Origin: a virus
Reading direction: 5' to 3' (one strand)
Virus record (IMG/VR): IMGVR_UViG_3300001349_000032
Span: 1 to 41,724 of that record
Length of the DNA stretch: 41,724 nt
The position numbers and the translations under genes are program-made. Shown in pieces: positions 1 to 30,191 of this stretch. Numbering within the stretch: the first letter of the stretch is position 1; the number at the start of each line of letters is the position of its first letter. The notes under the pieces are model-generated. The model saw nothing but the letters and a program-made list of their open reading frames with translations, did not search any database and had not been told where the DNA came from.

Positions 1-264
1 TCAACTACTGCTTTACGTAAATCTTCATCTGCATCTGTAATTCTAAATATACTATGTAAGTTGTGCTCAACTACTGCTTTACGTAAATCTTCATCTGTAT
101 CAATTATACGAAATAAACTATTAAGATTACCTTCTAGTACTGCTTTACGTAAATCTTCATCTGCATCAATTATACGAAATAAACTATGTATGTTTCCTTC
201 AACTAGTGCTTTACGCAAGTCCTCATTGTCAGTTAATTTAAAAATACTAGTTAAATCATGGTCA
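1..264 (-). repeat. 66-bp tandem coding repeats (22 residues each), at least four units
   Basis: Units lie at 1-66, 67-132, 133-198 and 199-264 with exact 66-bp spacing and continue past the left edge. The first three are very similar at DNA level (shared ACTGCTTTACGTAAATCTTC core); the fourth, at the N-terminal edge of the array, is more diverged. Each encodes a predicted helical 22-residue unit with DLRKA and a hydrophobic IFRI/LFRI end. The unit length is a multiple of three, so copy-number change would keep the reading frame. Confidence 0.92.
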
Positions 265-8543: not shown

Positions 8544-8551
8544 TATTTATA
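8544..8551 (-). promoter_or_regulatory. TATAAATA late promoter before fibre 1
   Basis: Exact T4 late consensus TATAAATA on the minus strand (8551 to 8544), overlapping the TAA stop of the upstream fibre gene. Expected start about 8538, giving a ~42-base leader before ATG 8496. A second motif, CTAAATAC, follows at 8528-8521. Confidence 0.6.
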
Positions 8552-11933: not shown

Positions 11934-12545
11934 TTACACCTCGTTAAATCCGCTAAGACTCTGCACTCTTACAGTATAGTCAATTTGAATTAATCTATTC
12001 AAACTTTTTTGTACTGGATGGAAAATTACATGAGTAATTAGTTTTCCTGTTCCAGAACTACTGTAACTTCGCAATCCTAATTCATCAAATACATATGCAC
12101 TGTTTGAATTTGATGATGTATCGTATGCATCTTGACCGTCAGGCTCGCCGTAATCTAATAAACAACTTACTAAAATATCAGTATAATTTGTGCCAGATAC
12201 GTGTCTTATTTCTGTTTTATTTCTTGAAGGATCAAGATTATTTACACTTCTATCATCAACTACTTTGGTATAAGTTTGATTATACAAGCTAGCATTTGTT
12301 CCAGTAGAGTTTGGTGTTAGATACGTTATTATACCTGTTGGGTCAATATTTGTTCCGCCGTTGCCGAAACTCATTTCATATACAAATCCCGATCCAGCGT
12401 TTGATAAACTTTCAGCTAATGCAATACTCATATTTTCATAATGTATTGCGTTACGCTTGTTTATTAAAATTTCACCAGATTTAGGATCAAATATTTTTAT
12501 GTGTCCTTCGATGTGTATTCCGTTTAATTCATTTATTTCTGTCAT
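11934..12545 (-). CDS. Baseplate/tail-associated structural protein, 203 residues
   Basis: Unnamed family; I judge it structural from context and style. Starts MTEINELNGIHIEGHIKIFD with a following (G)EIL-x-NKRNAIHYENMS segment, continues with a glycine-rich F-GNGG stretch, and ends in a beta pattern YVFDELGLRSY ... ITHVIFHPVQKS ... IQIDYTVRVQSLSG. Proteins with this N-terminal pattern are commonly encoded next to tail-fibre genes in marine T4-like phages. It lies between the giant protein and the collar-domain fibre, with AGGTGG five bases before ATG 12545 and two bases to the next gene's ATG. It could be a connector between wedge and fibre; no direct evidence. Confidence 0.7.
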   Translation of the reverse strand: MTEINELNGIHIEGHIKIFDPKSGEILINKRNAIHYENMSIALAESLSNAGSGFVYEMSFGNGGTNIDPTGIITYLTPNSTGTNASLYNQTYTKVVDDRSVNNLDPSRNKTEIRHVSGTNYTDILVSCLLDYGEPDGQDAYDTSSNSNSAYVFDELGLRSYSSSGTGKLITHVIFHPVQKSLNRLIQIDYTVRVQSLSGFNEV

Positions 12546-12561
12546 TGTACCACCTATACTG

Positions 12562-12569
12562 TATTTATT
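12562..12569 (-). promoter_or_regulatory. AATAAATA late-promoter-like motif before the 203-residue protein gene
   Basis: Minus-strand AATAAATACAG, overlapping the TAA stop of the giant gene, followed by AGGTGG and ATG 12545. Fits the NATAAATA form described for marine T4-like phages; the expected start is near 12556. Would allow the fibre genes to be expressed independently of the 13.6-kb gene upstream. Confidence 0.45.
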
Positions 12570-15500
12570 TAGGCAACTGTATTGTAGCCTTTAGAAGGAA
12601 TTTACTAATATCATTATTACTAGATCCTAGTGATTTAGTAGTTGAGTTAGACACAATCTCATTCCAAATTTGTCCTGTTTTTCTATATACTTCTATTCTT
12701 TCTCCATCTAACGGAATAGTTGAAAATGTAACTGTATTACCACTGATTGTAAATTCTGGATTAATTGTTTCATCACCTTCGGTACTATCTTGATCATTAG
12801 ATTCGTTGTACATACTTATGCTAGACTTACGTAGACGCTTGCCGCCAACTTTAATTTCAATTTCGTTTACACCGTATGTTGGTGTAAAGTTTAGATCCAC
12901 TGTTGCTGAAGATCCATTGCCACTAAATGTCTGTTTATCAATTGTATCATTGTATAATATATTTTCATCTGGGCCTTGTCCATAAACTTTAGTGTCTACT
13001 GCATATGCTAACTTAACGCCTGTTCCAAGTGTGCCACGTCTGAGTTGAGTTAAGTTATTGCCTGTTTTTGCAAAATATTCTATGCGTTCACCTTCAACAA
13101 ATATTACTCCAGGTATATTTGTTGAGACATCAGGTTCAAAAATTCCAGTTGCATTTTGTAATTGTATTGTATTATCATTATAATTTAAAATAGATTGTAA
13201 TTTATAACTATTTGCTTCGTTTAGCCTTTTGTAGTGTGTTCTATTAAGCATATCTTTAAATACTCTATATCCAAACGAATCAGTTGTTGAATTTCCAAAT
13301 TGTAAAACATCTATAGTATCTAATTCAACTGGAATATTAGTTAGCTCAACTGCATTTAATTTAGAATTTACAATATAGTCAATATTTACATCTAGCATAA
13401 CACCATTTTTAAATACCCAAACATATCTATTATTTGACACTATGTTTGTTAATCTTATTATACCCTGTGTAACTTCTTGTCTTTTTATATATTCCGGAGT
13501 TCCACTTGTTAAACTGGCTATTGTGCTAGGTTCTCCGGTTGTACTAGTTGTTAATACTGATAATGCAACTCTTTCAAATTTGTTTACATCGTGATTTGAA
13601 AAATGTATTAATTCAACTTTTTTTCCTGCTGCTGGTGCTGTTGTAAATTCAATTATATCTGAACGGACTTTATAATCTGCATCTTTATCAATTACTACAT
13701 TAATAGATGCTCCAACTGGAGCAATTAAATCATCAGTTAATGTAATAGTATATTCAGCTGGATTGTAGGTATATTGTAACGAAGTTAACTTAACAGTATC
13801 GACAAATACTTGAATATCTGTCGAAGTTATTTGACTTGGCTGAGTAAACTGCCAGCTATCGATATTATATACTCGACTAGATGTTGCTGTATAAGTTCGG
13901 CTATATCCCGGTTTTTGTACTTTATTATCTACTAACAATAATATTTTATGCGACCATGGATTGTTGTTAAACGGCGTAACATTTACACTATATGTAGTAG
14001 TTGATCCATCAGGAATAAATGTTTTGTCAGTAATAATTTGACTATATGTTTTTAATGTGTTATTATACAAACTATATTGTATAATATTGTTATTACTAAT
14101 GCTTGCTGTATTAAGTAATTCAATAACTACCTTTCCTGTTGTTGATTTAACAAGATTATAATCAACTCCAACAGTTTTGATTACTCCGTTTATAGTTAGT
14201 ATTGCTGTTACTGTAGTTGACCATATTGCAACTGTTGGAATTTGAGATATTCCTGTAACATAAGTTAATGAATTTCTGTCAATTAAATCAGTGCCATTGG
14301 CACCAATTGTAGTAATTGAGACTCGGTTACTACCGCCTATTTCATAACTGCTATCGCCGTCAATATGTAAAGTATTGTCAAACCAATTAATTGAATATAA
14401 TTCACTAGGTAAAATAACTCCATCTAACTGTACAATTATATCTGAATTTGAAAAAGGTGTTCCAGGTAATGTAAATGTAGTAGTACTTGTATCTAGCGTA
14501 TAATGAACAACATCAATCTTGCCTACACCTTCTGATGGTTTATGAAATACTCTCATATCTAATGTATCAATTAGTTGACCCGGTACTAACTCCTCAGGGC
14601 CTTGCGACGACAAAGGAGAAACAAAGTCGTCACCGTCGATATTAATTGATTCTGGCAAAACTCCAGTTGCTGTAGTATAACCTAGGTCGCCTCCTGACAA
14701 TGCAATATCATAACTATTTGGTGACGGAGTAAAGCTACCATCACTGGTAGCTTTCCTAATTATAACATTATCTCCGTCGGTTATTCCAACTATTTGCTCA
14801 TTAAGAACAATAACTGTTGTTGAACCGTCGCCAATTATAGTTGACATTCTAACATTATTAATAATTGTTGATCCATCAAAATTTGGGCCGTCGATTCTTA
14901 CTCCATTAAGATATACATGGTATTCAACACCATCAATTAACGGAGAACTCATTTGGAATATGTTTGTACTTCCGTCAAGAATAAACACTTCATCTTCGTA
15001 TGCACTATCAAATGCATCCCATGGTTGAGTGCCAAATCCTTGAGCTTCAAAACCTTGTTCTACTCCAAAATCTGTTCCTTCGTATACCGACTTAGCATTT
15101 TTAACTCCGTTAAGAAGTTGGCTTAAATCCTTACCTGGCATATTACTAGTAGGAGTATAAAAGAAATTAATTCTATCAGCAGCATCAAGCATTCTAATAT
15201 CTTTTTTATATGTAATAACTATAGTATCAGTTGCTAAAGGTGCTGTATTAAAAGTTACATACCCAAGATATCGATCATAACCTTTAGTAGTATCTAATTT
15301 GTTTCCAACTGTATAATTACTCGAAACTAGTACCTTAGAATTTATAGTTATACTAAACTGATTAGTTTTTATGTCAATTGGCCATTTTAATCCAAATGTT
15401 TCTTTTGATCCTGTTCCTGTAAATGATTCATTTACAACAAGGTCAGTAACATAATAAGATCCTCTTACCCTGTCAAATTTCATAATCATATGACTAGATC

Positions 15501-18500
15501 TAACCACACTTTTACCTAAAATTGCTATAGCACTTGCTGTTACGCCGTCTTTTGATGTACCGATTGTTATAGTCGGAGCAGTTAAAAATTTTAATGTATT
15601 AGGTTGACTAATAATTTGAATACTATCAACAGAACCATTTTTTAAATATGCATATGCAATAATATCACTATCGCCAATTTTAACTATTGGAGTATCTATA
15701 TATCCACTTCCGCCGTTGATAACTTTTATCGAAGCTATATCAAATCCAACATTATCTTTCCAATTTTTATACGGATAATTATTATATCTTGTATCTAAGT
15801 TTGATATTAAATCTGTTGTTTTGTTATATACAGCCGACGAAGTTTCAATTAATCCATCATGATAACTCGGAGGAAGATCAAAATCAGACGTCATAGTCTG
15901 CGTATTAGATATATTTTCGTAACTTGATATATATTCTCGTACTTTAGTTTTAAATGGTTTTACTTCGTTAACATAATCTTGATAATTTTCTAAATTATCA
16001 TTTTGATAATTTCTTGTTTTCTTAAAGTTACCAAGATTGTGTTTAGCTGTTACAAAACTACTTTTAAATGCCCAGTCTAGTCCTGGCTGTTCTGCAAACG
16101 CATATCGTAAGCTGGCAAAAAATAAATTATAATATTCAACTTCAAGATCTGCAATAAAAATATTGTTTTTAAGTACTGACATAATTATTCGTAATTCTTC
16201 AACTGGTTCTTTATCATAGAACGAAGTATCATATAATTTTGAATCGTATCCCTTACTAGATGTAATTGTGTCGTATAGAGATGTTGACAATTCTATTGTA
16301 CCATTTTCTCTACCAATAGTTTGATAATTAACTGTATAGTCTTCCGTATCAGTATCGTTAATTTTCTTTAACAATAGCCAACCGCCTGTGCCAATGGTTT
16401 TAATTTTTACTATATCACCAATTTCACAGTCTAATAAAAATAATTGGTAGCTTTGATCTACACTTTTGTTAATTGTTGTTAGTTTATCATATCCGTCAGC
16501 ATACCAATCTTTATAAATCCAATATTGTCGTGTATCATAAGATTGAATATTGGTTCTTTCCCATATTCTAGTAATTTTATTATACTTGTAAATAGTCCAA
16601 ACGTTTTCAACGGTTGAATCTGTTTTAACTAAAGCAGTGTAATCACGAACTGTTAACGTAGTATTAGATGAATATTTTTTCCCCGAATCTCTTACAGTAA
16701 CACTTGTTATCTGTCCTAAATTATTAATAGTTGACTGTAGTACTGCGCCAATTCCGCTAGATGAAGTTATCTTTATAACTGGAGCATTTACATAACTTCT
16801 TCCAGATTTTATAATATTAACTCTAATTATTTTTCCATTACTAATTACAGGCAATAGTTCAGCCTTTTCAAATTTAGCCATTATTATATTATCAAGATCT
16901 TCAATAGTTTCAACTATCGAATCATATACTCCAGTGTCAGCATTTGGAATTTTATCAAAAGTTAATAGTCCTGATATATCATAATTATCAACAATTTGGT
17001 ATTTGTATAATATTGAATTTGCTCTCTCAATAACTTGCTTTAATGCTTCTTTGTTATTAATAAACATTCCTTGACGTGGATAATTTAAAATTCCATATCT
17101 ATTGCTAACTGGTAATGATAAATCTGGTAGTTGTATTTCTTGTAAATCGTATCCAACTAAACTATCTAACCATTTTTGTTCAATCTCGTGATTTAGTTTT
17201 TCTCTACTGACAACACCTTCAGCTAACAATTGATATTCACGATGTAAATTTACTTGAAGATTTTCATCTTTTAATAATTCAAAACGTAATATAGAATTAG
17301 TTCCTTCAATAAAACTTTTGCAATTGTGTAATATAAATTTATCAGTGTCGAGTATTTCTACATAACGATATCCTTGCGAAGCTGGATCTGCTATAAGATT
17401 TGCAACCGACATTGCATCAAGTGTTCTAAAATTAACCGATGGGATTGTTTTTTTGTTTTTAACCCAGTAAAAATATTTTTCACTAAATGTCTTAGAAACA
17501 CTATCAAATACTCGTTTTATACTATATGCTTGATCGCCATATAATGGTACTCCAGACACTCCATTTGAAATTCCTTCGTTAGTGTTACTCAATGACAGCC
17601 ATTGACTTGGAGTCAATGATGTGCCAACCCATTCGTAAATATCAATACTAGTTCCAAATATTAGCTTACTACGATGTGCTGATCTATAATGTGAATCGCC
17701 TTGATAAGGATCGTACCATGCAGAAGTTGACAAGTTCCACCATAGTCGTCCTTCATATTCTTCGTTCCATGCTGAACTTTCATCAACTACTACATTTGCC
17801 ACAATATTTCCAAGTTCGTCTTGTGTATTAACTGAATATATTGCAGGATCATAAAATGTTTTATACGATATTTCAACATCTGCAACACGAGGTATTCTTC
17901 CCTGACGACAGTCAACAACATCTAATGTAGTTAAAAGATCATCTGTATCTGCTGAATATAGTAATACTCGTTTAATTTTGTCAAGATTTATCATTCCATC
18001 TTGAACTGACAACGATGTCCAAGAATCAATATTAATATCAGCTCTTAAATCTGTAACTATTCCAACTGAATCAGCCGTGGTTAAATTAACAATTGTACTG
18101 TCACTAGTGTCAGCAGGATCAACATTTGGAAGACCTATGTATATATGATTGTTTGAAAACACAAAATTTTCTAACTCAGATCCTGTTGTTTTTCTTTGAT
18201 AATCAACATCTTCGGCAAATATAAAATTATTTCCAATATCTTGAAATATAAAAATTCTGCCTGTATCTTTGGTAACATTTTTAAAAGTAGTTGAATTGCT
18301 ATCAAAAGTTGTAATTGAATCATTTTTTGTTCCTAATGAATCTAATACATATTTTGAATAAACTAATGTGTGGTCTGCTAATTGATCAACAATATATTTT
18401 TGTATAAATTCATCATACGTATCAAAACTTATTGACAATCTACGATCGGTATTTTTTGCTGATACTGCAAGTTTATTTTTACTAAAATCAAGACTGGTTC

Positions 18501-21500
18501 CAAAAAATTCATTTATTTCTAGATGTATACTTTTTAATGTTTGATCTAGACTATAAGTTGATACATTATTAATAGTAGTTTTTTTGTATACATAAACACA
18601 ACCTTGATCTATTCCTGTTTCATCATTTCCGGGTGCACCGATTGCAATTTTATCACCGGTATCGTTAACTGCAAGACAATATCCAAATTGTTCATGTGTG
18701 TTTGCTGAACTAATATCTTGTATGTATTTCCATCTACCTAATTGATTAAAATATACTGAAATTTTATTATCAAATCCGTCTGACGACTTAAATGCTAATA
18801 CATCGCCTAATTCGTTAACATCAAATATTTTTCCAATATTAACAATACTATCAGCAGATGAATCATCTGCTTCATCTGCAATATTCATTCCTGTACGAGG
18901 AACATATCCTGTGTGTTCAATAAGACTAACAGTACTCAAGGTCGGATCTGATATTTTTGTCCATGCTGCTGTTATAGTAGGTAAATTACTTCCAGCAGTC
19001 ATTGTAATACTTGCTTGATACAATTCTTCATTATATAGCACTATGTCTAAGTTGTTATATTGAACTGAGTTACTATATTCACCTTTAAATTTTCTATCAA
19101 TACTATAATTCCAAGTAGACCCATCATAATCTATAAAATAAATACGGTCTGCTCCTGGAGCACCGACAAATAGTCTGTAGGTTTCCTCGCCTACTGTTTT
19201 TCTTATTTCAACATGATATCCAAATTTTTCATCTGTTGTCGGAGTTGGCGATATTACACACGAATGAAACCCATAAGCGCCTGTTTGATAATTTTTTTCA
19301 TATAGATATACTAAACCTTGATTGCTTAACCCGCTTGATGTTCCGTCTTTATCAGCTGTAAGCATAGATACAACTTTCCAATCGTGACTCTGGTCAGTAA
19401 TTGTACTGTTGTCTCCAGTTATAGTTCTACGTGCTTCCCATAAGATTCCTCTATCAAGTACAATATCACCTGCACTGTAATTTCCACTACTAGATAGTGT
19501 TCCGACTAATTTTGACTTAACATTTGTTGCTAGCGGAGCACCAACTGCAATAAATCTATCAGTTGACGTAATTGATGTAGAAAATCCATAATTAGACGAA
19601 GTGCTATGTAAGCTATCAACTGGTATTAACGCCTGAGATTGAATTAAATTTTCAAACTCAGTATTTCTTGTGAATATACCTATACGTCCAATATTATTAT
19701 GTGTTGGTGATCCTATAGTAACAATATTATTTAATTTGTTTGATGAAATACTTGTACCAAATTCGTCAGTAGTGCTGTCAAGTTCAACAGGATTAATAAC
19801 TTCGTTATGCAGTTTAAACATACTTTGATTTTGATAAACTTCCCATAAACTATTACCGTTGTTTTCTAACCATATGCGATCTCCTGGTGTATTATACAAA
19901 TCAATTGCTGTACTATTTGCTATGTTAACATCTGCAAATTTGCGAGTTACAAGTTTAAGCACGGTTGTTGAGCTTAGTGTTGGAAATTGATCTTCTTCAT
20001 TGATTGCTTGAGATGTTAGTAACCCAACTTCAGTTAATCCATCTTTAGCTAATACACTGTTTACTTTATAAAATCCTGTAACTATACTATCTGAACGTAT
20101 ACCAATTATATCATTAACACTTAGATTAACATACCCGTTAAAATAACAAGTAAATCCCTGTACAAAATTTCCCTGTTGATCTATACGTGATTCTTCAGGC
20201 AAGTTTAGTGCAAAACTATTAATTGTAAGTTCGTCTGCATGTATGATTCTATAAACATTCCAACTAGTTAATTCGTGTGTAACCCAGATAAACTCACCGG
20301 CTGAGATAGCATTAAGATTTAAATCAAGTATATTATCTTTAAAGGTAACAATAAATGAAACATCATTATCATTTACAAATCCTGAATATCTTGTAAAAAA
20401 ATTATTATCAAATTTTTCAACAAATGGATTATTGTTATAACCATCAGGAGTAAGTTGTAATGAATTATTTGTTAATTCATATACTAAATCATTTCGAGAT
20501 GTTGTATTGTCAGTTAATTCAAATATTTGAGGTTCTAATTTTATCTTTGATTCATCTAATTTAAATTCTAATTCTTCAATGTTATCAAACGATCCAAAAT
20601 TTCCTACTCTTAATGCCCATTCTTCATAAAACTCTAAGCTATCTTTATCAGCAGTACTTAATTTATCAAACAATTTAGTTAACGAATTTTTAGTACCCTT
20701 TTCTTGTATAAATCCTTGATAAAATTTATACTCACTTGAGCTATCTGCGATAATATTTGATAGGTATTCTCTAGGCTGATATCCAATTAGATGCTGCGCC
20801 ATTCTTTGTTGTTCAGAATCAAAATTGTCACTATCTAAATCATAAAATTCAGTAAACTGTAATGCTTTATAATCCCAATTAGGCAAAAGTTGTCGAGTTG
20901 GTTTTTGATCTAATAACGTCCAAAAAACTGGATTGAATTTTTCTGTACTTGAATGTGTAGTATTAGACGAATAATAATATTGTTTATACCGAACTACATC
21001 GCCAATTGTATAGTCACTCCACACTTGCCAATCAGAAATTTTTGGATCATCAAAAATAAATCCTGGTATATTATAACTTCCGTTCCAGTCAGCTGTTCGA
21101 TGACCTACAAGTTTAATTCTATCCTGTCTATATCCAGTTGAAGTTTGATAGATAGTATCATTAAACACTGTAGAATTATCAATTAATACAATATGTTCTC
21201 TTTGTACCAACGGAAGATTTACAGAATATATTAGATGTTTATCATCTAACGGCTGAATACCAAACATATTTTTTTCGTCTCGATATACACTTATTGTATT
21301 GTTTGTTACTACAGTACCGTCATTTGACAATAGCACATAATCATTATTTTTTGAATCTTTTAAATTATCAACAACATGATATTTTCTTTCAAAAACAACT
21401 GCATTAGCAAAAGGACTTAAACTTAAAACTGTTCCGTTATCCCAATTTTGCTGTGTCCAAAACAAAAATTCTTTTATTAGTAAATTAACATCCTCAACTA

Positions 21501-24500
21501 GTTCAGTTTCATTATTGAAATAATCAAATATAAATCCTTGCTGTTGAAGATATTGTTCGTATCCAAGTAAAAAATCAACTAATTCTTGATCAGTTTCTAT
21601 TAAATGTCCATAATTATAACGTGTTAATGTATCTTCAAAGTGTGTAGCAATTAAAGCCGTAGTTCCGCCTGCTAACGGTAATTTTGATAGTTTTGTAAAT
21701 TTTTTATCATCAAATGTTTGAGTGCTTTCATGTGTAATAGTAGTTCTATAATATTCATCATTATACTGTACTACTATACCTGAAACATATTGAGATTCTT
21801 GACTCCACAAAATAAATTCTTCGCTAACTCCGCCTACTGTTAGTTGAATATCACCAACTTGTCGAATAGATTTGTAAATGTCAAAAAATGGAGTTGTCTT
21901 ATTATATCCAGAAATTAAATATCCTTTATTTGATTTTTCAACAATAATTGCACTTATTGATACTAAGTCAATAACACTACTAGTATTGAAAAATATTTGA
22001 TAGTTTTCATCTGGAACAAATACTGTATTTTTATTTAACGGGCTGCGACTGTCTAAAACTAATTTAAGTTTTGATTTATCAGCATACCCTCCGAGTTTTA
22101 TTGAAAGTTGATTTGTTAATTTAGTTAATGTATCCTTATATAAGTTATATACATCTAAATTTTTTCCAATTAAAAATGCTGATATATAATTTATTAATCC
22201 TGAAGAATAATTTATTGTTTGTACATTATCAAATGTTGGAAATAACAACTCAGACAGCTCAATTTGTTTTTCAGTTGAACTATAAACCAAATTGTTAGAT
22301 AAATCTCGGTTAACTCTACTTGTATCAAACCCTAATCCTAACACTTTAGCAGGCTGAGATAATACCCATGCTGTTAACAATGCAAAAGGATATTCTGAAC
22401 TTCTACGCCAGGCTGTTTCAACTGGTGAATAGTCGCCAAACATCCAAGACTGGTTAGCTGTCGACACATTAAAATTTTGTGCTAATCCTGAATCATACGG
22501 ACTTAATAAATTTCCACTTGAATCTACTGGAATATAATTTAATAAATCTAGACGTACATATTTTTTATTTTTGATAATTGCAACACCAGGTTGTCTAATT
22601 ATACCTTGCGATAAATCTTGCCATAAAATTAAGTTATCCTTTGTATACGGAGCAACACCATAAACAGTATCCCACCAAGTTGGTTTAATGTAAAACCCTA
22701 CCATTTCCCAGGGGTGAGAATGAGGACGATCAGTATCAAAATAATCTTTGTATATACTTCTCCAACTGCCGCTAAGGACTTCGTTGTTATATGATCCAAG
22801 ATAGGAATAGTTATACGAAAATGAGTCAGTATCTAAAAAATCATTATTTTCACTATATGTTAAATTACCAACTGTTTCATTCCAGCTAACAAAATCACTA
22901 ATTAATATTTTATTAATTTTTGTAGAGCTAAATCCACTACTACGAAATTTTCCTTTAATGAAATCATGAATATCCAGTTTGTTAACATCATATTTTGCCT
23001 TAATATTATTAAAAATCCTATATTCAATTTCTAAAATAATATCATCTCTGTAGTCATCAAATGCTTTTATTAAAGATCCATCGTGACCTTGAATTACCGA
23101 TACCGGAGTATTAAAATTATAAGTTGTATCAATATATTTTATTGGCTGATACTTTGGATATAACCCTAATTTAGTAGGAGTAGGAGGCACAAACCACGAA
23201 TCAGTTGAATCATATTCGTAAATATCAATTACATCATTAATTAATGGAGTTGTTAATAAATTTACAAATCCATCTTTAAACGTATAATCTTTATCATGCA
23301 AAAGTTGTTGATCGTTTTTATATACTAGTACAGACTTAGACGATAATGTGTCTAGTGTAAATGTTGATGATAATGAAAAATAAGAAACACTAGTTGATGT
23401 AATAGTATGTCTAGTTTTTATTTCATTTTCAAAACCAATCATATCCATAAATTTAAATGCGTTTGAAGATATAAAATCTTTAGATAAGTTTGAAAGTACT
23501 AAATCAGCATGTTCTTTGGCCGAACCATGAAATCCACTATTTTCTATTTCAAAAATTAATTTTCTTTTAAATTTAGCATACTCGGTTTTAGCATATCTTA
23601 AGGAATTAACAACATTACTATCGTCAGATGCTAGATGATATAATGCTAGATTTACAGGGCCGCTGTGCTTAACAAATCGTCTACCATATTTGGCTAAATT
23701 TCCTATATCTCTTAGATTATTACTACCCGGATGTACTCCATCAAAACTAGGATGAGCTTCGGCAATTGAATCTACATGATCCGAAACTTCACCTAATGTA
23801 AACGATGTAATATTTTCATTTAACGGGTTTTTTTCAAAATTAATAGGCATTTCATAAAATCCGTTGGTGTTTTTATCAGCCGAACTTAAACATTTAAACA
23901 CTACCAAGTCTTCGGTTTTTAAATTCTTAATAAACACAATACGTCGGAAATTACTGGTATTATCAACTGTATAATCAACATTTTCAATTTTACGAATTCC
24001 ATTTACTAAAACTTGAACAGTAAGGTCTGTTAGTTGAGAACTATTATCGTATACATCAATATCAAAATTATTTAAAATAGTTGATACTTGTAGGGTTTGT
24101 ATAACATGCTGATAACTATTAACATTAGCTTTTTTCCATCCAGATGTATATTCAAAAGTAGTTCCATCAGTGTTATATTTTTTTAAGAACGCTTTATCAG
24201 TCTTATAAGTAACTTCAGTTAAACTTGCAGTTTGATATATTACCGATTGTGTAAGTAAATCAAAATTAAACGCAATGTCTCCAATATTATTAATACTATT
24301 ATATGATAGAGGAAATCCTAATTCGGTGTCAGCAACACCAGTTCCAATTTTATAACTAAAAACTTTATTACCAGCAAAATTACTTGAATCGTATAAAATT
24401 TCATCATTTAGATTATTTTGTAATTTATCAAATAAATCAAAAAGTGGCTCTTGATTGATTGCAGTTTTTTCTTGTGCTAATTTCCAATTTTTACCATTAT

Positions 24501-26175
24501 AAAAGAACATTTTTCCTTTATAAGAATTACCTAACTTAGATAAAACAACATCGTTATCCAAAGGAGATGCATCAGCTTCTTCTACTAAACCAATTTGTTT
24601 AACTGAGTTATGTGTATGTACTCTTACTTTATATATTCTTCCTGACACAAGTATATCTGTATCAGCAGTAAAAAGTACTCGCATTCCGTGAGCTAAATCA
24701 ACACCATCGACATTGTATCCAATACTTCCTTCAATAGTACTAAACACATCTTTTGTATACGTATCGACTAGGTCAACTTGTGCCTTTGCTTTAGCACCAT
24801 GATTAAACAATTTAAGACCCGACTCAAATTCAATAATAGGCCTAATTGCTCTTGTACTTTCATCTATATCAATTGGCAAATTATTTGCCAATAACGATGA
24901 TTCAATTACTGATTTATGAAACCATCTATTATTTCGTGACCATGGATTACGATCAGGACTGTTCCGATTTATTAAAATGTAATCTCGTGTTATAGGCTGT
25001 GTTATAGCTACATCAAGAGGATCTTCATCAAACACAGAATTGTCAAAAGGTGATGATTTATCAGATGAAAATGCGTTCGAAGTTACTAATTCTGTTTCAG
25101 GTATTAATGATATACTATCTCCAACTCCTTCGACATACCATGAACCAGTTGAATATTTTGTTGGTATCACATTTCCTTCAAAATGTATCTTCATTCCGTT
25201 GCTTAATTTAGTACCTGTTCCTAGTGTATATGTACTTTTTCCAATTATTTCATTATCAATATCAATCTGAGAATTTTCTGAAATATTAAAAAAGTTAAGT
25301 ATTCCACTAACATCACCATCTAATTCACTAATATAGAATAATGTATCAGGAATTGTATCACTAACTTTAAGTTCAATTATGCCATTTTCAATATAATTCT
25401 GAGTAGTTAATTCTAAACTGCCATCATCTTTATAAATGTATTTTTTTATACCAGTAGTATAAAGATTACTAGTATTTTGAGTATTAATTTCTGCTGAATA
25501 CTCTTGATCTATATAGCTTCTATTTGTAGCTATTGCAACTGGATATCCAGGACTATTAATATCAAATTTATATGTTTGTCCTTTATATAGTTTTATTGTA
25601 GGATTATATTTTATTCCATCAGGAGTTACTACAAATACTGTTGAATTACTATCTAACTTATTTGTTATTTTGTAGGTACTAACTGTTTCTCGTTGCTGAC
25701 CACTAATTGCAACCGATCTTGGACCATTTGATAACCAATAGTATTCTCTAAAATTTACAAACTTATCTAAATCAATATGAGGATTCCATGCATAAAATTC
25801 TGATGCATTTAATTTGCTATGATTACTAACATCGCCGCCAAACTTTTTTATAACACCTAAATAATCATTATAATCTTTATAAAAATTAACATTTTCATAT
25901 TCGTCTTTTTGGACTAACGCTGGCTCAAATTGATAATCTTCTCTATTTGAAGTAACGTCTTTTAAATATAAATCTGTTTTTTCTCTCGATAACGAATGTC
26001 GTCTTCCAGCATAAGAATTAATTTTTTCAAGTTTACCAGGAGTAATAAACTGATCAACTGTACTTGACAAAAACTTTTTATTAGCGTCTGACCTAAAATA
26101 TTTAGGTAAAAAATTATGAGATTTTTCAGTATTATTATTGTCAACTGGTAAGGACATTTCATCTTTATTAGCCAT
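12565..26175 (-). CDS. Giant virion structural protein, 4536 residues
   Basis: A single uninterrupted frame of 13.6 kb, coupled to gp6 by TAATG. It stands where T4 has wedge genes 7 and 8 and later baseplate genes, so an outer-wedge or fibre-network role is inferred. Visible parts: an N-terminal segment (~22-155) with LPKYFRSDANKKFLSSTVDQ and AGRRHSLSREK; an aromatic-rich central region (~985-1290) with HPWEMVGFYIKPTWWDTVYG; an FG-GAP-like beta-propeller at ~2120-2700 (FGTSISS, VTIGSP, IAVGAP, LFVGAPGADRIYF, IAIGAPGNDE); (G)G-x-GY-x(3)-P-x-(V)-x-I beta elements near 3120 and 3480; a helical segment near 3320-3400 (YNLFFASLRYAFAEQPGLDW, then YVNEVKPFKTKVREY); and a C-terminal third of repeated ~100-residue beta domains (DGSTTTYSVN, DGVHY-like, VGGKRLRKSS). 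No enzyme motif is evident. Comparable giants occur in marine T4-like phages. Confidence 0.9.
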   Translation of the reverse strand: MANKDEMSLPVDNNNTEKSHNFLPKYFRSDANKKFLSSTVDQFITPGKLEKINSYAGRRHSLSREKTDLYLKDVTSNREDYQFEPALVQKDEYENVNFYKDYNDYLGVIKKFGGDVSNHSKLNASEFYAWNPHIDLDKFVNFREYYWLSNGPRSVAISGQQRETVSTYKITNKLDSNSTVFVVTPDGIKYNPTIKLYKGQTYKFDINSPGYPVAIATNRSYIDQEYSAEINTQNTSNLYTTGIKKYIYKDDGSLELTTQNYIENGIIELKVSDTIPDTLFYISELDGDVSGILNFFNISENSQIDIDNEIIGKSTYTLGTGTKLSNGMKIHFEGNVIPTKYSTGSWYVEGVGDSISLIPETELVTSNAFSSDKSSPFDNSVFDEDPLDVAITQPITRDYILINRNSPDRNPWSRNNRWFHKSVIESSLLANNLPIDIDESTRAIRPIIEFESGLKLFNHGAKAKAQVDLVDTYTKDVFSTIEGSIGYNVDGVDLAHGMRVLFTADTDILVSGRIYKVRVHTHNSVKQIGLVEEADASPLDNDVVLSKLGNSYKGKMFFYNGKNWKLAQEKTAINQEPLFDLFDKLQNNLNDEILYDSSNFAGNKVFSYKIGTGVADTELGFPLSYNSINNIGDIAFNFDLLTQSVIYQTASLTEVTYKTDKAFLKKYNTDGTTFEYTSGWKKANVNSYQHVIQTLQVSTILNNFDIDVYDNSSQLTDLTVQVLVNGIRKIENVDYTVDNTSNFRRIVFIKNLKTEDLVVFKCLSSADKNTNGFYEMPINFEKNPLNENITSFTLGEVSDHVDSIAEAHPSFDGVHPGSNNLRDIGNLAKYGRRFVKHSGPVNLALYHLASDDSNVVNSLRYAKTEYAKFKRKLIFEIENSGFHGSAKEHADLVLSNLSKDFISSNAFKFMDMIGFENEIKTRHTITSTSVSYFSLSSTFTLDTLSSKSVLVYKNDQQLLHDKDYTFKDGFVNLLTTPLINDVIDIYEYDSTDSWFVPPTPTKLGLYPKYQPIKYIDTTYNFNTPVSVIQGHDGSLIKAFDDYRDDIILEIEYRIFNNIKAKYDVNKLDIHDFIKGKFRSSGFSSTKINKILISDFVSWNETVGNLTYSENNDFLDTDSFSYNYSYLGSYNNEVLSGSWRSIYKDYFDTDRPHSHPWEMVGFYIKPTWWDTVYGVAPYTKDNLILWQDLSQGIIRQPGVAIIKNKKYVRLDLLNYIPVDSSGNLLSPYDSGLAQNFNVSTANQSWMFGDYSPVETAWRRSSEYPFALLTAWVLSQPAKVLGLGFDTSRVNRDLSNNLVYSSTEKQIELSELLFPTFDNVQTINYSSGLINYISAFLIGKNLDVYNLYKDTLTKLTNQLSIKLGGYADKSKLKLVLDSRSPLNKNTVFVPDENYQIFFNTSSVIDLVSISAIIVEKSNKGYLISGYNKTTPFFDIYKSIRQVGDIQLTVGGVSEEFILWSQESQYVSGIVVQYNDEYYRTTITHESTQTFDDKKFTKLSKLPLAGGTTALIATHFEDTLTRYNYGHLIETDQELVDFLLGYEQYLQQQGFIFDYFNNETELVEDVNLLIKEFLFWTQQNWDNGTVLSLSPFANAVVFERKYHVVDNLKDSKNNDYVLLSNDGTVVTNNTISVYRDEKNMFGIQPLDDKHLIYSVNLPLVQREHIVLIDNSTVFNDTIYQTSTGYRQDRIKLVGHRTADWNGSYNIPGFIFDDPKISDWQVWSDYTIGDVVRYKQYYYSSNTTHSSTEKFNPVFWTLLDQKPTRQLLPNWDYKALQFTEFYDLDSDNFDSEQQRMAQHLIGYQPREYLSNIIADSSSEYKFYQGFIQEKGTKNSLTKLFDKLSTADKDSLEFYEEWALRVGNFGSFDNIEELEFKLDESKIKLEPQIFELTDNTTSRNDLVYELTNNSLQLTPDGYNNNPFVEKFDNNFFTRYSGFVNDNDVSFIVTFKDNILDLNLNAISAGEFIWVTHELTSWNVYRIIHADELTINSFALNLPEESRIDQQGNFVQGFTCYFNGYVNLSVNDIIGIRSDSIVTGFYKVNSVLAKDGLTEVGLLTSQAINEEDQFPTLSSTTVLKLVTRKFADVNIANSTAIDLYNTPGDRIWLENNGNSLWEVYQNQSMFKLHNEVINPVELDSTTDEFGTSISSNKLNNIVTIGSPTHNNIGRIGIFTRNTEFENLIQSQALIPVDSLHSTSSNYGFSTSITSTDRFIAVGAPLATNVKSKLVGTLSSSGNYSAGDIVLDRGILWEARRTITGDNSTITDQSHDWKVVSMLTADKDGTSSGLSNQGLVYLYEKNYQTGAYGFHSCVISPTPTTDEKFGYHVEIRKTVGEETYRLFVGAPGADRIYFIDYDGSTWNYSIDRKFKGEYSNSVQYNNLDIVLYNEELYQASITMTAGSNLPTITAAWTKISDPTLSTVSLIEHTGYVPRTGMNIADEADDSSADSIVNIGKIFDVNELGDVLAFKSSDGFDNKISVYFNQLGRWKYIQDISSANTHEQFGYCLAVNDTGDKIAIGAPGNDETGIDQGCVYVYKKTTINNVSTYSLDQTLKSIHLEINEFFGTSLDFSKNKLAVSAKNTDRRLSISFDTYDEFIQKYIVDQLADHTLVYSKYVLDSLGTKNDSITTFDSNSTTFKNVTKDTGRIFIFQDIGNNFIFAEDVDYQRKTTGSELENFVFSNNHIYIGLPNVDPADTSDSTIVNLTTADSVGIVTDLRADINIDSWTSLSVQDGMINLDKIKRVLLYSADTDDLLTTLDVVDCRQGRIPRVADVEISYKTFYDPAIYSVNTQDELGNIVANVVVDESSAWNEEYEGRLWWNLSTSAWYDPYQGDSHYRSAHRSKLIFGTSIDIYEWVGTSLTPSQWLSLSNTNEGISNGVSGVPLYGDQAYSIKRVFDSVSKTFSEKYFYWVKNKKTIPSVNFRTLDAMSVANLIADPASQGYRYVEILDTDKFILHNCKSFIEGTNSILRFELLKDENLQVNLHREYQLLAEGVVSREKLNHEIEQKWLDSLVGYDLQEIQLPDLSLPVSNRYGILNYPRQGMFINNKEALKQVIERANSILYKYQIVDNYDISGLLTFDKIPNADTGVYDSIVETIEDLDNIIMAKFEKAELLPVISNGKIIRVNIIKSGRSYVNAPVIKITSSSGIGAVLQSTINNLGQITSVTVRDSGKKYSSNTTLTVRDYTALVKTDSTVENVWTIYKYNKITRIWERTNIQSYDTRQYWIYKDWYADGYDKLTTINKSVDQSYQLFLLDCEIGDIVKIKTIGTGGWLLLKKINDTDTEDYTVNYQTIGRENGTIELSTSLYDTITSSKGYDSKLYDTSFYDKEPVEELRIIMSVLKNNIFIADLEVEYYNLFFASLRYAFAEQPGLDWAFKSSFVTAKHNLGNFKKTRNYQNDNLENYQDYVNEVKPFKTKVREYISSYENISNTQTMTSDFDLPPSYHDGLIETSSAVYNKTTDLISNLDTRYNNYPYKNWKDNVGFDIASIKVINGGSGYIDTPIVKIGDSDIIAYAYLKNGSVDSIQIISQPNTLKFLTAPTITIGTSKDGVTASAIAILGKSVVRSSHMIMKFDRVRGSYYVTDLVVNESFTGTGSKETFGLKWPIDIKTNQFSITINSKVLVSSNYTVGNKLDTTKGYDRYLGYVTFNTAPLATDTIVITYKKDIRMLDAADRINFFYTPTSNMPGKDLSQLLNGVKNAKSVYEGTDFGVEQGFEAQGFGTQPWDAFDSAYEDEVFILDGSTNIFQMSSPLIDGVEYHVYLNGVRIDGPNFDGSTIINNVRMSTIIGDGSTTVIVLNEQIVGITDGDNVIIRKATSDGSFTPSPNSYDIALSGGDLGYTTATGVLPESINIDGDDFVSPLSSQGPEELVPGQLIDTLDMRVFHKPSEGVGKIDVVHYTLDTSTTTFTLPGTPFSNSDIIVQLDGVILPSELYSINWFDNTLHIDGDSSYEIGGSNRVSITTIGANGTDLIDRNSLTYVTGISQIPTVAIWSTTVTAILTINGVIKTVGVDYNLVKSTTGKVVIELLNTASISNNNIIQYSLYNNTLKTYSQIITDKTFIPDGSTTTYSVNVTPFNNNPWSHKILLLVDNKVQKPGYSRTYTATSSRVYNIDSWQFTQPSQITSTDIQVFVDTVKLTSLQYTYNPAEYTITLTDDLIAPVGASINVVIDKDADYKVRSDIIEFTTAPAAGKKVELIHFSNHDVNKFERVALSVLTTSTTGEPSTIASLTSGTPEYIKRQEVTQGIIRLTNIVSNNRYVWVFKNGVMLDVNIDYIVNSKLNAVELTNIPVELDTIDVLQFGNSTTDSFGYRVFKDMLNRTHYKRLNEANSYKLQSILNYNDNTIQLQNATGIFEPDVSTNIPGVIFVEGERIEYFAKTGNNLTQLRRGTLGTGVKLAYAVDTKVYGQGPDENILYNDTIDKQTFSGNGSSATVDLNFTPTYGVNEIEIKVGGKRLRKSSISMYNESNDQDSTEGDETINPEFTISGNTVTFSTIPLDGERIEVYRKTGQIWNEIVSNSTTKSLGSSNNDISKFLLKATIQLPK
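18080..19820 (-). other. FG-GAP-like beta-propeller region in the giant protein
   Basis: Approximate residues 2120-2700. At least five blades show the signature of an FG(T/Y/F)-x-(I/L) strand followed after ~10-20 residues by a hydrophobic-G-(S/A)-P: FGTSISS/VTIGSP, YGFSTSI/IAVGAP, FGYHVEI/LFVGAP, FGYCLAV/IAIGAP, FGTSLDF/LAVSAK, plus IYIGLP. Such blades fold as integrin-alpha-type propellers and often bind protein or carbohydrate partners. Boundaries are estimates. Confidence 0.65.
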
Positions 26176-29100
26176 TAGTAACTATATCCTCCACTACTCG
26201 AACTACTACTTGAACTACTACTTGAACTACTACTTGAACTACTACTTGAACTACTTGAACCACTCTGTATTGAATACGTCGAAGCTGCTATACTAGTTGT
26301 TCCGCTTTGTATTGCTAAATTTGGTTGGCTAGTTGCAATTGTAATTGCACCCTCGGCTTTTAGCCTATCAGCAGTTATTGAAGTAATTATTTCAACATCG
26401 TCGACTGTTGCTGCACTAATAAATATTTCATCAGCATTTGCTTTTATTTCTTGAAGACTTCCAAAATAACTACTAGGGTCTCTTGGCACTATTACAATGT
26501 TGCTTATATTTGTAGCCAATTGTTGCATTATGTAAGCACTTAGTTCGCCCCAGTAAAATGTTTCGCCAAAGTCCCAATTTGTTAAGGAAAAATATTGATC
26601 AATAGCTGCAATGATTTGAGATTTTAAATCATTATTATTTGTAACTTTTTCATTATTTTTTACCACTTTAAAAACTGCTTGCATTTTTGACTCACTTATT
26701 TTTCCAAATAAAGGTTTAAAAACTACTGGATGATAAATTAATTCATCACTAATAGATTTAATTTTGTTTATATCAGTACTGTATGTTCTATACAATAAAT
26801 CACTACTCGGCGGAAGCGGTGCAGTTGTTAATACTCCTGAAAGATATAACCTATAATTAGTATTATACTGCTTGGTTAATAGATACATATCTATTATATT
26901 AGTTGAACTAGGATCAATTCTTGTATTTTCATCAGTGGCATGTACGTATTGAAATTTAAGGTTATTTCTTCCAGTATATGCGTTATAATTATAGTTATCG
27001 GTAAGTGTTTTAGTTGTACTATTCAAATTGTAAAATAATCCTAGTGTCGTTGTATAAAATACAGGATTGTTTTCTGTTAGTGTATTAATACTTTCATAAT
27101 CAGTAACTATTATAATATTTTCGATTTGTTGATCAACATAATCATAACTTTCACTATTATTCTTTGTTATTTTTTTAGTAAACACATACTCAGTTGATTT
27201 AACTATTTTTTCAAATAATTCAATATCGTCAACTACTCCATCATCGTCGGAATCAGAAAAAGTAATTTCTAATTTTTTATTATTAATATAACCATCGTCA
27301 TTATAAAATGATTTTGAAACTTCCCAATTAAAATCAGTTGTATAAGCTAACGTATTAGTCGAGGCATTAACATCATTATTAATACTTAATACGCTAATAG
27401 TATCTTTAATAAGTTTTCCTGTTTTTGAATCGTATATTTTTTTATTTTGGTCAAAGAAAAATTTAACTTCATTATAACTTTCAAAAATATAGCGAAGAGA
27501 TCGGTAACTTACATCATAAGTAGTTCCGTTTGTTTCAAAAAGTAATATCCAGCTTGAGTCTAATGACTTACTAGTTGTATCGCCTGCTGCCGATGTACTA
27601 AAATTATTAACAAGATTTAAATCATCTTGTAGAATAATTTTCCATTGCTTGGTGTTTCTGTCATATCTTAAACCAAAAGTTTTATATGAAAATATTTGGT
27701 TTATCATTTCTACTTTAGTTAATGCTGTTAATGTCCTTACAAATTTTGGTTTAATTTCTGATAATATTGCTCCATTTGGAATTTTATCATTTAATGTAAT
27801 TGGTCCAAGACCTGTGGTTGTATTAGTTTTTCCATCAGTGTAAATACTTACTACCTTTGTCCATTTATAAGTAGAAGATCCTGCGTGACTTGCAGGGCCG
27901 GCCATCAATGTTCCATCTGGCATAAAATGGTATCCTTCTGGTGGAGTAAATTTAACCATAGCACCTGACTCAAAAAATCTTAAAGTACTTTCAGTATATG
28001 AACCTACAACTACAGCTATATCAGTAGAATCAACAATTTTACCTGTAGACCGATTAGTTTCTGTAGTAACTGATGACCATGTTAACCCTATTAATTGATA
28101 GGACTGATTTTGAAAATTATCTAGATAAAAATTTCTTACATTTTTATCTTTTAAAATAGATGATATTCTATTTTCAATTACACCTTCGATATCTGTACGA
28201 GTAACAAAACTAAACATTTCTTTTTTTGTTATGTTTTCCTTGTATAAAACGCCATCTGAACCAAAAATTCTTGTATTACTATATTTTCCAGTTGCATCAA
28301 CTAGATCATAATTACGATTTATTCCGCTAGCGGTTCTATTAACTGCTTTAGATTTTATAATATCTTGACTTATACCCAAAGGACCAATATTATAATCTTC
28401 ACCAGTAATTAACCTATTTTGTGTATAATAAGTACTTGGAGCATTATCACGAATACTATCTGAAGTTTCTGAACTAGATGCATTACTTACTGTACTTTTT
28501 AAGTCTAAATTTATTGTTAAAGTTTCTGACCTGCCAATACTACTAATATATGGCAACGAGACCGAAACATTACTAATATTTGCTGGTAATATTGTAAAAT
28601 CTCTGTTTACACTAGTTCTGTAATATATTCTAAAAGTACCTTTTGGTAAATCACCAAAAACACCATCAGAAAAACGCAAGCTTATTCTATCGTTAATTCG
28701 AGTAACAACAGAATAAAAAGACTTTATTCCTTTGTTTAAACTATTATAAACAACATTATTTCCTTCAACAGCTTCAACTTGTGTCCATAATTCTTGTTCA
28801 TTACCATTGGAATCTAGCTTGTATAGCCATATATCTGATTGATTTATATTTTCAGCATCAATATCAACTCTTTGGTTTGGCACTGGATTATCAATTACAA
28901 ATTCTCCTCTTTGTAATTGTCCTTGTACAAAATTAAGAAAGAATCCTGTATTAGAACTAGCAGCACCTTGGCCATTATCTCTATACAAAAAATTCATACT
29001 GCTAGATAATGTAGGTGCTGACTCGATAATTTCTGAGTCTTTGATTCCGGTACTTACTACTTCAAAATCTAACGACTGACTGCTTACTGCTTTGCTAAAT

Positions 29101-29699
29101 GCATAAACTGGAATTCCAACCTGTGCTAGATTAAATGCATATTTCTCTGTAGGAATATTAGCTACATTAGCAAATTCCATCGGCTGTCCAAATTTATTTT
29201 GTGTCATCATTGCTGCATTTAATACACGAACAAATTGTTCAAACCAGTCTCGATTTGTTGGATCGTTCCATGCAATTGATCTGCCACTTAAATTATTAGA
29301 ATTTGAATCAACTACATTTTCTGTAGTAGATATACTTGTAAATTTTAATAATCCTTTAGCTGCTTGATTTCTTTTTGGACTATAAGATAACAGTCTGGCT
29401 AAGCGTAGTACACTTTCTCTACGTTCGGCTAATTCAATAAAGTTTTCTCTGGCATTAAGATCAACACGGAAACTAATATTTTGTCCAAGAAAAGCCACCA
29501 TATCAATTAGTGCTAGATATTCTGAACTTTCAATATAATCATTAAAATCTTCAGGATAGTTAGTACGAAGATAATCAATCATAGTTCTTCTTAGATTATC
29601 AAAATCATAGCTTTTAAAATCAGCAAATTTAAAACTTTGATAGACTCGTTTCCAGTCTTCGGCTGCTAATAGTCTAGTTTGTCTGTCAGTTGAGGACAT
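26175..29699 (-). CDS. 6: Baseplate wedge protein gp6, 1174 residues
   Basis: Recognisable T4 gp6 family: the N-terminal ~110 residues carry the conserved block DWKRVYQSFKFADFKSYDFD, LRTNYPEDFNDYIESSEYLA, LGQNISFRVDLNARENF and RESVLRLARLLSY. The central part has SLRFSDG-x-FGDLP-x-G and FRIYYRTS typical of the gp6/gpJ-like core, and PSSYFGSLQEIKANADEIFI near the C-terminus. gp6 dimers join neighbouring wedges into the ring around the hub and change shape on sheath contraction. It is longer than T4 gp6 (660 residues), as usual for marine relatives. Odd: after residue ~1140 it ends in a run of about 25 serines followed by GGYSY, encoded by 12-bp tandem repeats. Start ATG 29699 has AAGGAAAG upstream. 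Confidence 0.93.
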   Translation of the reverse strand: MSSTDRQTRLLAAEDWKRVYQSFKFADFKSYDFDNLRRTMIDYLRTNYPEDFNDYIESSEYLALIDMVAFLGQNISFRVDLNARENFIELAERRESVLRLARLLSYSPKRNQAAKGLLKFTSISTTENVVDSNSNNLSGRSIAWNDPTNRDWFEQFVRVLNAAMMTQNKFGQPMEFANVANIPTEKYAFNLAQVGIPVYAFSKAVSSQSLDFEVVSTGIKDSEIIESAPTLSSSMNFLYRDNGQGAASSNTGFFLNFVQGQLQRGEFVIDNPVPNQRVDIDAENINQSDIWLYKLDSNGNEQELWTQVEAVEGNNVVYNSLNKGIKSFYSVVTRINDRISLRFSDGVFGDLPKGTFRIYYRTSVNRDFTILPANISNVSVSLPYISSIGRSETLTINLDLKSTVSNASSSETSDSIRDNAPSTYYTQNRLITGEDYNIGPLGISQDIIKSKAVNRTASGINRNYDLVDATGKYSNTRIFGSDGVLYKENITKKEMFSFVTRTDIEGVIENRISSILKDKNVRNFYLDNFQNQSYQLIGLTWSSVTTETNRSTGKIVDSTDIAVVVGSYTESTLRFFESGAMVKFTPPEGYHFMPDGTLMAGPASHAGSSTYKWTKVVSIYTDGKTNTTTGLGPITLNDKIPNGAILSEIKPKFVRTLTALTKVEMINQIFSYKTFGLRYDRNTKQWKIILQDDLNLVNNFSTSAAGDTTSKSLDSSWILLFETNGTTYDVSYRSLRYIFESYNEVKFFFDQNKKIYDSKTGKLIKDTISVLSINNDVNASTNTLAYTTDFNWEVSKSFYNDDGYINNKKLEITFSDSDDDGVVDDIELFEKIVKSTEYVFTKKITKNNSESYDYVDQQIENIIIVTDYESINTLTENNPVFYTTTLGLFYNLNSTTKTLTDNYNYNAYTGRNNLKFQYVHATDENTRIDPSSTNIIDMYLLTKQYNTNYRLYLSGVLTTAPLPPSSDLLYRTYSTDINKIKSISDELIYHPVVFKPLFGKISESKMQAVFKVVKNNEKVTNNNDLKSQIIAAIDQYFSLTNWDFGETFYWGELSAYIMQQLATNISNIVIVPRDPSSYFGSLQEIKANADEIFISAATVDDVEIITSITADRLKAEGAITIATSQPNLAIQSGTTSIAASTYSIQSGSSSSSSSSSSSSSSSSSSSSSSGGYSY
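26193..26260 (-). repeat. 12-bp microsatellite encoding the poly-serine tail of gp6
   Basis: Repeats of TACTACTTGAAC on the plus strand (about five full or near-full units), read on the minus strand as AGT/TCA serine codons. In frame, so slippage would add or remove four serines at a time without breaking the stop or the TAATG link to the giant gene. Confidence 0.9.
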
Positions 29700-29750: not shown

Positions 29751-30191
29751 TTAAATTAACCCATTGTCTCTATCAAATTCTAACTGTAAAAATTCACTAA
29801 TATTATATTCTAAATATGTTACTTCAAACTCAACTTGTATTCCTGACTCGTATGAATCAACATTAATAGCATCAACAGTTACTCGGGGATCTGATCCTAC
29901 AATTTCTGTTAGATTTTGTATAATAGACTGCTTTAGTGTATCAGTAAATGGCTCATATAATACATCCCATATTATGTTTCCAAATTCTGGATTTTCTAAC
30001 TTTTCACCTATTCGAATATATAAGTGGTTTAGTATGTCTTGTTTTATTATTGCAACATCAAATTTTTTAAATTCTTTATTTTCATCAACAGTACTTAGAC
30101 CTCGATATGACCTATTAGCAATAGGTTTGTTAATCGGTGAAACTGGTTCAACTTGAACCAATTTATATAAGTTTTTTTCTAATGTACTCAT
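29751..30191 (-). CDS. 25: Baseplate wedge protein gp25, 146 residues
   Basis: Member of the gp25/W family, the small lysozyme-like-fold (but non-enzymatic) wedge component that nucleates sheath assembly and is conserved in contractile tails. The signature is present: a run D-x-(A)-I-K-Q-DILNHLYIRIGEKLENPEFG, then IIWDVLYEPFTDTLKQSII and a C-terminal VTVDAINVDS ... VEFEVTYLE strand pair. Length is close to T4 gp25 (132 residues). It follows the lysozyme-domain gene by 12 bases with AAGG before ATG and precedes gp6, the same pairing of wedge partners that physically contact each other in T4. Confidence 0.95.
   Translation of the reverse strand: MSTLEKNLYKLVQVEPVSPINKPIANRSYRGLSTVDENKEFKKFDVAIIKQDILNHLYIRIGEKLENPEFGNIIWDVLYEPFTDTLKQSIIQNLTEIVGSDPRVTVDAINVDSYESGIQVEFEVTYLEYNISEFLQLEFDRDNGLI

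Follow-up and report, generated by a model that had tools for sequence, protein, structure and literature searches.

A giant structural gene of the RaK2-like jumbo-phage family, a candidate baseplate wedge protein with inserted carbohydrate-binding-type modules

The giant gene and its neighbours

The window, by which we mean the whole stretch of 41,724 nt of viral DNA that was analysed, carries on its minus strand a single gene that occupies a third of its length. In the direction of transcription the order is gp25-like, gp6-like, giant gene, followed by a small conserved gene:

29751..30191, minus strand: gp25-like sheath initiator/wedge protein (phrog_43, phrog_261)
26175..29699, minus strand: gp6-like baseplate wedge protein, 1174 aa (phrog_10646, E 1e-296; phrog_219, E 6e-23)
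12565..26175, minus strand: giant gene, 4536 aa, 511 kDa, pI 4.9
11934..12545, minus strand: conserved protein of 203 aa after the giant gene, phrog_11259 (function unknown)

The PHROG matches of the gp6-like protein bear out the first-pass annotation, which had placed gp6 directly before the giant gene. Its Pfam match to PF21379 (Gp6-like_1st) is weak, and the gp25-like protein reaches 22.4 bits against PF04965, which is under the cut-off. The gp6-like protein has a long run of serines at its C-terminal end (26193-26255, minus strand; GSGS...S followed by GGYSY), and 5.2 copies of a 12-base tandem repeat encode it. A gene of about 200 aa is also found downstream of the giant gene, near the same place as that of the 203-aa protein, in PA5oct, Atu_ph07 and SCTP-2. 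A collar/gp10-like gene with a Tail Collar domain stands separate from the giant gene (9850-11931, minus strand). Together with 8547-9848 and 7027-8496 on the same strand, it encodes three successive fibre-like proteins that have the N-terminal domain TSLxLxGKxxxxYGxxxNxNxLxLLENF in common, which suggests a common attachment module.

The giant gene reads from an ATG without internal stop over 4536 aa. At its base composition, the chance of an open frame this long is about 10^-177. Its start shares one base with the stop of the gp6-like gene (TAATG), so that both the uninterrupted frame and the TAATG coupling described earlier from the letters were found again; the strand, which had been missing from that description, is minus. 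A related locus (L006) that is 86-88% identical to the giant gene preserves the frame across 4027 codons, with a dN/dS of 0.12 overall and of 0.09-0.19 in each block of 500 codons. The gene is under purifying selection along its whole length. Among 76 IMG/VR loci of the giant gene, the frame is intact almost everywhere, as far as the retrieved DNA extends, and the complete gene of one relative encodes 4937 aa. A frame change in one relative (L055, around 5693-5882) and a single in-frame stop in another (L062, around 18974-18976) may be sequencing errors.

A jumbo-phage family with a conserved scaffold

When compared with the PHROG families, the giant protein matched phrog_10938, annotated "virion structural protein", with E=0 and 1053 bits. 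A tblastn search with the protein gave 87 phage records, topped by the PA5oct-like Pseudomonas phages, Atu_ph07, the Sinorhizobium phage Phosso, SCTP-2 and the RaK2/121Q/PBECO4 group. Judged by these matches, the gene belongs to an already known and widespread jumbo-phage family and is no new kind of object; the protein is ordinary by family and unusual by size. The first-pass annotation had pointed to very large tail proteins in marine T4-like phages; the isolates closest to the window are jumbo phages of the RaK2-like group, and neither T4 nor cyanophages.

The family members are 3326 aa (RaK2 ORF070), 3857 aa (PA5oct gp355), 4449 aa (Atu_ph07 gp180) and 3807 aa (SCTP-2 gp140) long, and a reported member, AP-J-162 gp58, has 4455 aa (PMC11242549). 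The core of the window protein is 24-30% identical to those of RaK2, PA5oct, Atu_ph07 and SCTP-2, with block order and place alike, whereas the window branch is larger than these named isolates and has four CBM5/12-like modules and an FG-GAP region. RAS14, a more distant member of 3138 aa, retains the same blocks in identical order, and the great length is therefore ancestral in the family. The giant gene lies directly after the gp6 gene in the window, PA5oct, Atu_ph07 and RaK2, and the order gp25 - gp6 - giant is common to the window and PA5oct. In SCTP-2 the giant gene follows a large unannotated gene (the neighbour is labelled hypothetical).

In many jumbo phages these genes rank with the largest that encode structural proteins, and they are very common in viral metagenomes. 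They are annotated solely as "virion structural protein" or "hypothetical", and the literature lists family members merely in the same terms, as structural or hypothetical (PMC7247149, PMC11242549). The annotation of PA5oct gp355 carries "ESI-MS/MS", i.e. the protein was seen in virions. In phAPEC6, gp245 (381.9 kDa) was detected with 17 peptides and a coverage of 7.6% and is listed beside the baseplate wedge protein gp244 (PMC7247149). By its expected size and place, gp245 is probably a family member. The window phage is known from its contig alone; through these homologues, the earlier proposal that its giant gene encodes a virion protein is supported.

Family alignments divide the protein into conserved blocks with variable stretches between them, in agreement with the distinct regions noted before:

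25681..26118, minus strand: residues 20-165, conserved N-terminal block, aligned in RaK2, PA5oct, Atu_ph07, SCTP-2 and RAS14
23446..24993, minus strand: residues 395-910, conserved core block, from the family comparison
21046..23208, minus strand: residues 990-1710, conserved core block, predominantly beta and in part helical, with a good AF2 model
21676..21813, minus strand: residues 1455-1500, CBM5/12 module 1 (Pfam PF02839; 1ed7 chitin-binding fold)
20905..21042, minus strand: residues 1712-1757, CBM5/12-like module 2, from a fold match and member comparison
20386..20889, minus strand: residues 1763-1930, KGT domain (KGT at 1826, EEWA at 1851), proposed gp7/P2-gpI-like wedge-docking domain
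18106..19788, minus strand: residues ~2130-2690, FG-GAP region (PF14312 at 2491-2530, E 3e-8)
19369..19506, minus strand: residues 2224-2269, CBM5/12-like module 3, inside the FG-GAP region
18952..19086, minus strand: residues 2364-2408, CBM5/12-like module 4, inside the FG-GAP region
16996..18063, minus strand: residues 2705-3060, conserved block, from the family comparison
15586..16578, minus strand: residues 3200-3530, conserved block with a GxGY...P repeat at 3489
12568..15585, minus strand: residues 3531-4536, variable beta-rich C-terminal third, from the family comparison

The KGT domain is contained in a further conserved block at residues 1763-1980. An AF2 model of residues 990-2000 was good up to about residue 1760. 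In a Foldseek search against the PDB, the matches to this model were confined to CBM domains and to baseplate chains with low scores, and no fold link to solved wedge proteins emerged; against viral models the search returned family members and otherwise weak matches. A PDB sequence search with the whole giant protein and four profiles gave only chance matches, CBM domains and a GxGY-repeat tailspike.

Among Pfam families, the giant protein matched CBM_5_12 (PF02839) in three stretches and FG-GAP_2. The PF02839 match reached 41.9 bits against a cut-off of 26.2, and the AF2 model matched the 1ed7 chitin-binding fold with a Foldseek probability of 1.00, though with E 0.095. An iterative CBM model drifted, with envelopes of about 100 aa, and the CBM matches of 12-18 bits were therefore set aside. 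The FG-GAP region is a probable beta-propeller. PF14312 scored 34 bits against a cut-off of 23, and a single stretch passes alone; by eye there are about seven candidate blades, of which a simple motif scan recovers three. Two of the CBM-like modules sit between the blades.

The distribution of these modules differs from that of the scaffold. Module 1 is absent from RaK2 and two of the IMG/VR loci (L074 and L075), module 2 is absent from RaK2, PA5oct, Atu_ph07 and SCTP-2, and another locus (L066) has a CBM5/12 module at a different position. RaK2 and RAS14 gave zero Pfam matches to CBM or FG-GAP. Since the CBM positions vary and RaK2 and RAS14 have neither kind of module, we conclude that a conserved scaffold received modules in some lineages and that, in these alignments, the CBM5/12 and FG-GAP modules are lineage-specific insertions. 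Near the cell, the inserted modules are probably in contact with surface glycans, of the GlcNAc type or others. Such insertions suggest a way in which these phages may retune surface contact while the scaffold remains unchanged.

The KGT domain and the place of gp7

In T4 the gene for gp7 follows that for gp6, and the P2 order is W (gp25) - J (gp6) - I. According to work on XM1 (PMC10457771), contractile machines share the (gp6)2-gp7 unit as a conserved element. We searched the complete genomes of PA5oct, Atu_ph07, RaK2, SCTP-2 and RAS14 for gp8 (PF09215), the gp7 helical domain (PF21428) and whole gp7 (phrog_964). None of the three was matched in these five relatives, whereas the T4 controls were positive, which confirms for complete genomes the first-pass observation that separate gp7 and gp8 genes could not be found.

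Residues 1763-1930 offer a concrete region for the gp7 question. At least 597 IMG/VR stretches encode this domain. The KG is invariant in 51 members, with the pattern FYxGxIxxKGT...EEWA...YG; the corresponding motifs are KGT...EWWE in P2 gpI and KGIEAS in T4 gp7. When 45 blocks of the giant protein were compared with a P2-gpI profile built from 65 relatives from bacterial genomes, the two KGT-containing blocks ranked first, with scores of 26.0 and 25.6 and P values of 0.0016-0.0019, the next block scoring 19.1. They aligned in register, KGT on KGT and EEWA near EWWE, and the reversed profile scored 8.7. The uncorrected P of 0.0016-0.003 refers to a short aligned core and a motif chosen post hoc, and the match loses significance once corrected. 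The KGI of T4 gp7 is also in register with the KGT domain (P 0.03-0.09), but the KGT blocks are not top-scoring for T4 gp7.

The sensitivity of the profile method is limited, because the same method did not link T4 gp7 to P2 gpI (P 0.12). Pfam Tail_P2_I (PF09684) and the gp7 models (phrog_964, PF21428) had no match in members with the KGT domain; for PF09684 this negative result is weak, because PF09684 misses T4 gp7 too. Three families (phrog_2885, phrog_26741 and phrog_32294) appeared to bridge one member of the KGT alignment to gp7, but the matches were lost once the GxGY part at the end of the Atu_ph07 fragment had been cut off, and the bridge was dropped.

An AF2 model of residues 1757-1960 from 51 sequences had a pLDDT of 62 and a pTM of 0.27. 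The fold search found no wedge fold for this model, whose low confidence makes its matches meaningless. The low confidence could mean that the domain needs gp6 in order to fold, but a shallow alignment would explain it equally well. Overall, the likeness to T4 gp7, P2 gpI and TssG consists in the place after gp6 and possibly in a KGT motif domain in register, and the sequence comparison is suggestive of a relationship of the KGT domain to P2 gpI and T4 gp7. On the other hand, the giant protein exceeds T4 gp7 in length by a factor of 4 and P2 gpI by a factor of about 26, with no significant sequence match to either, and no match to gp7 domain V/VI or fn3 was found in it.

Possible roles at the baseplate

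We consider it reasonably likely that the giant protein is a single-chain baseplate wedge and periphery protein that stands in for T4 gp7 (P2 gpI, TssG). The KGT domain, small and helical, would dock onto a pair of gp6-like chains, giving a (gp6)2-gp7-type wedge unit, with gp25 sitting above the unit that contains the giant protein. The remaining conserved blocks would build an enlarged baseplate rim, into which the CBM5/12 modules and the propeller-like FG-GAP region would have been inserted in the window lineage for putative glycan binding. By analogy with T4 gp7, its copy number would be six. We favour a gp7-type wedge core with a rim platform for two reasons: other readings do not easily account for the position of the gene and the missing gp7 and gp8, and the core stays constant across members that differ in their adhesive modules. 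If true, this placement would fill a hole in the parts list of RaK2-like baseplates and explain why gp7 and gp8 are missing in these phages.

A different reading, which we regard as unlikely, sees in the protein an adhesin attached to the baseplate, as an external fibre or at the rim, with no gp7-like structural role; gp7 would then have been lost, or a small protein that escapes recognition would have replaced it. The giant protein is indeed beta-rich and acidic, has CBM5/12 modules, FG-GAP and GxGY repeats and a variable C-terminal third, and the profile of residues 2690-3560 touches a tailspike depolymerase (28lx/8ck1, E 1e-3). However, its core is kept across phages of very different hosts, RAS14 included, while the adhesive-looking modules are missing in RaK2 and RAS14, so that adhesion through these modules is not the ancestral role. 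Moreover, the long tail fibres of RaK2 are other proteins, gp526-gp534 (PMC10253068), and in the window separate collar/fibre-like genes follow the giant gene. A purely external fibre is thus less likely than a wedge/periphery protein.

The first-pass annotation had proposed a wedge/fibre fusion. The gene does lie at the place of gp7, but it appears very improbable that gp7, gp8 and other baseplate proteins of T4 have been fused in it. Such a fusion would account for the separate gp7 and gp8 genes not found in the complete relatives and for a protein several times the size of gp7. Yet a direct phmmer comparison of the giant protein with T4 gp6-gp12 gave nothing, Pfam likewise showed no similarity to gp8, gp9, gp10, gp11 or gp12, and the collar/gp10-like gene stands separate. 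With no trace of T4 gp8, gp9, gp10 or gp11, there is therefore no support for T4 baseplate genes having been literally fused. The absence of gp8 needs no fusion either, because P2-type baseplates function without it. From the family comparison, the extra length would be explained by a large family-specific scaffold and lineage-specific modules. That the giant protein is a precursor cut into several virion proteins seems the most improbable, since no positive indication of cleavage turned up and the strength of purifying selection hardly differs from one part of the chain to another, although the chain is very long with distinct blocks and published mass spectrometry gives peptides per gene and not a single chain (phAPEC6 gp245, coverage 7.6%, PMC7247149).

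The wedge protein reading has parallels in other systems. In phage Vp4, the CBM-bearing wedge protein Gp119 binds cells (PMC11406892), and in AlgoCIS the gp7-like wedge part has been called an evolutionary hotspot of related machines (PMC8894135). Both Vp4 Gp119 (Herelleviridae baseplate wedge 3) and AlgoCIS Alg11 are likewise wedge proteins with carbohydrate-binding modules, but these belong to other CBM families, the proteins are much smaller than the giant protein, and the scaffolds are unrelated as far as compared. More tentatively, we suggest that a whole jumbo-phage clade may have made gp7 into a platform of 3000-5000 residues, so that a single chain would dominate each wedge. The platform would be an acceptor for mobile sugar-binding modules, from none in RaK2 up to some seven in certain marine members, and these would form a second, baseplate-borne glycan-binding system in addition to the tail fibres. 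New here are the probable placement as a gp7 equivalent and the pattern of module insertion.

Elsewhere in the window, a gp5-like hub protein (31987-34641, minus strand) has an M15 D-Ala-D-Ala carboxypeptidase domain (PF13539), at a place where RaK2 is reported to carry a lysozyme domain. Downstream, a virion-type protein (4694-6097, minus strand) matches the E1_FCCH domain (PF16190, 42.5 bits), which is unexpected in a phage tail gene. A long open frame that runs off the window (1-2047, minus strand) has two similar halves with DGD-type motifs and looks like a glycosyltransferase. It ends in tandem repeats of about 22 residues (LHSLFRIIDADEDLRKAVLEGN), which correspond to a 66-base repeat at the DNA level.
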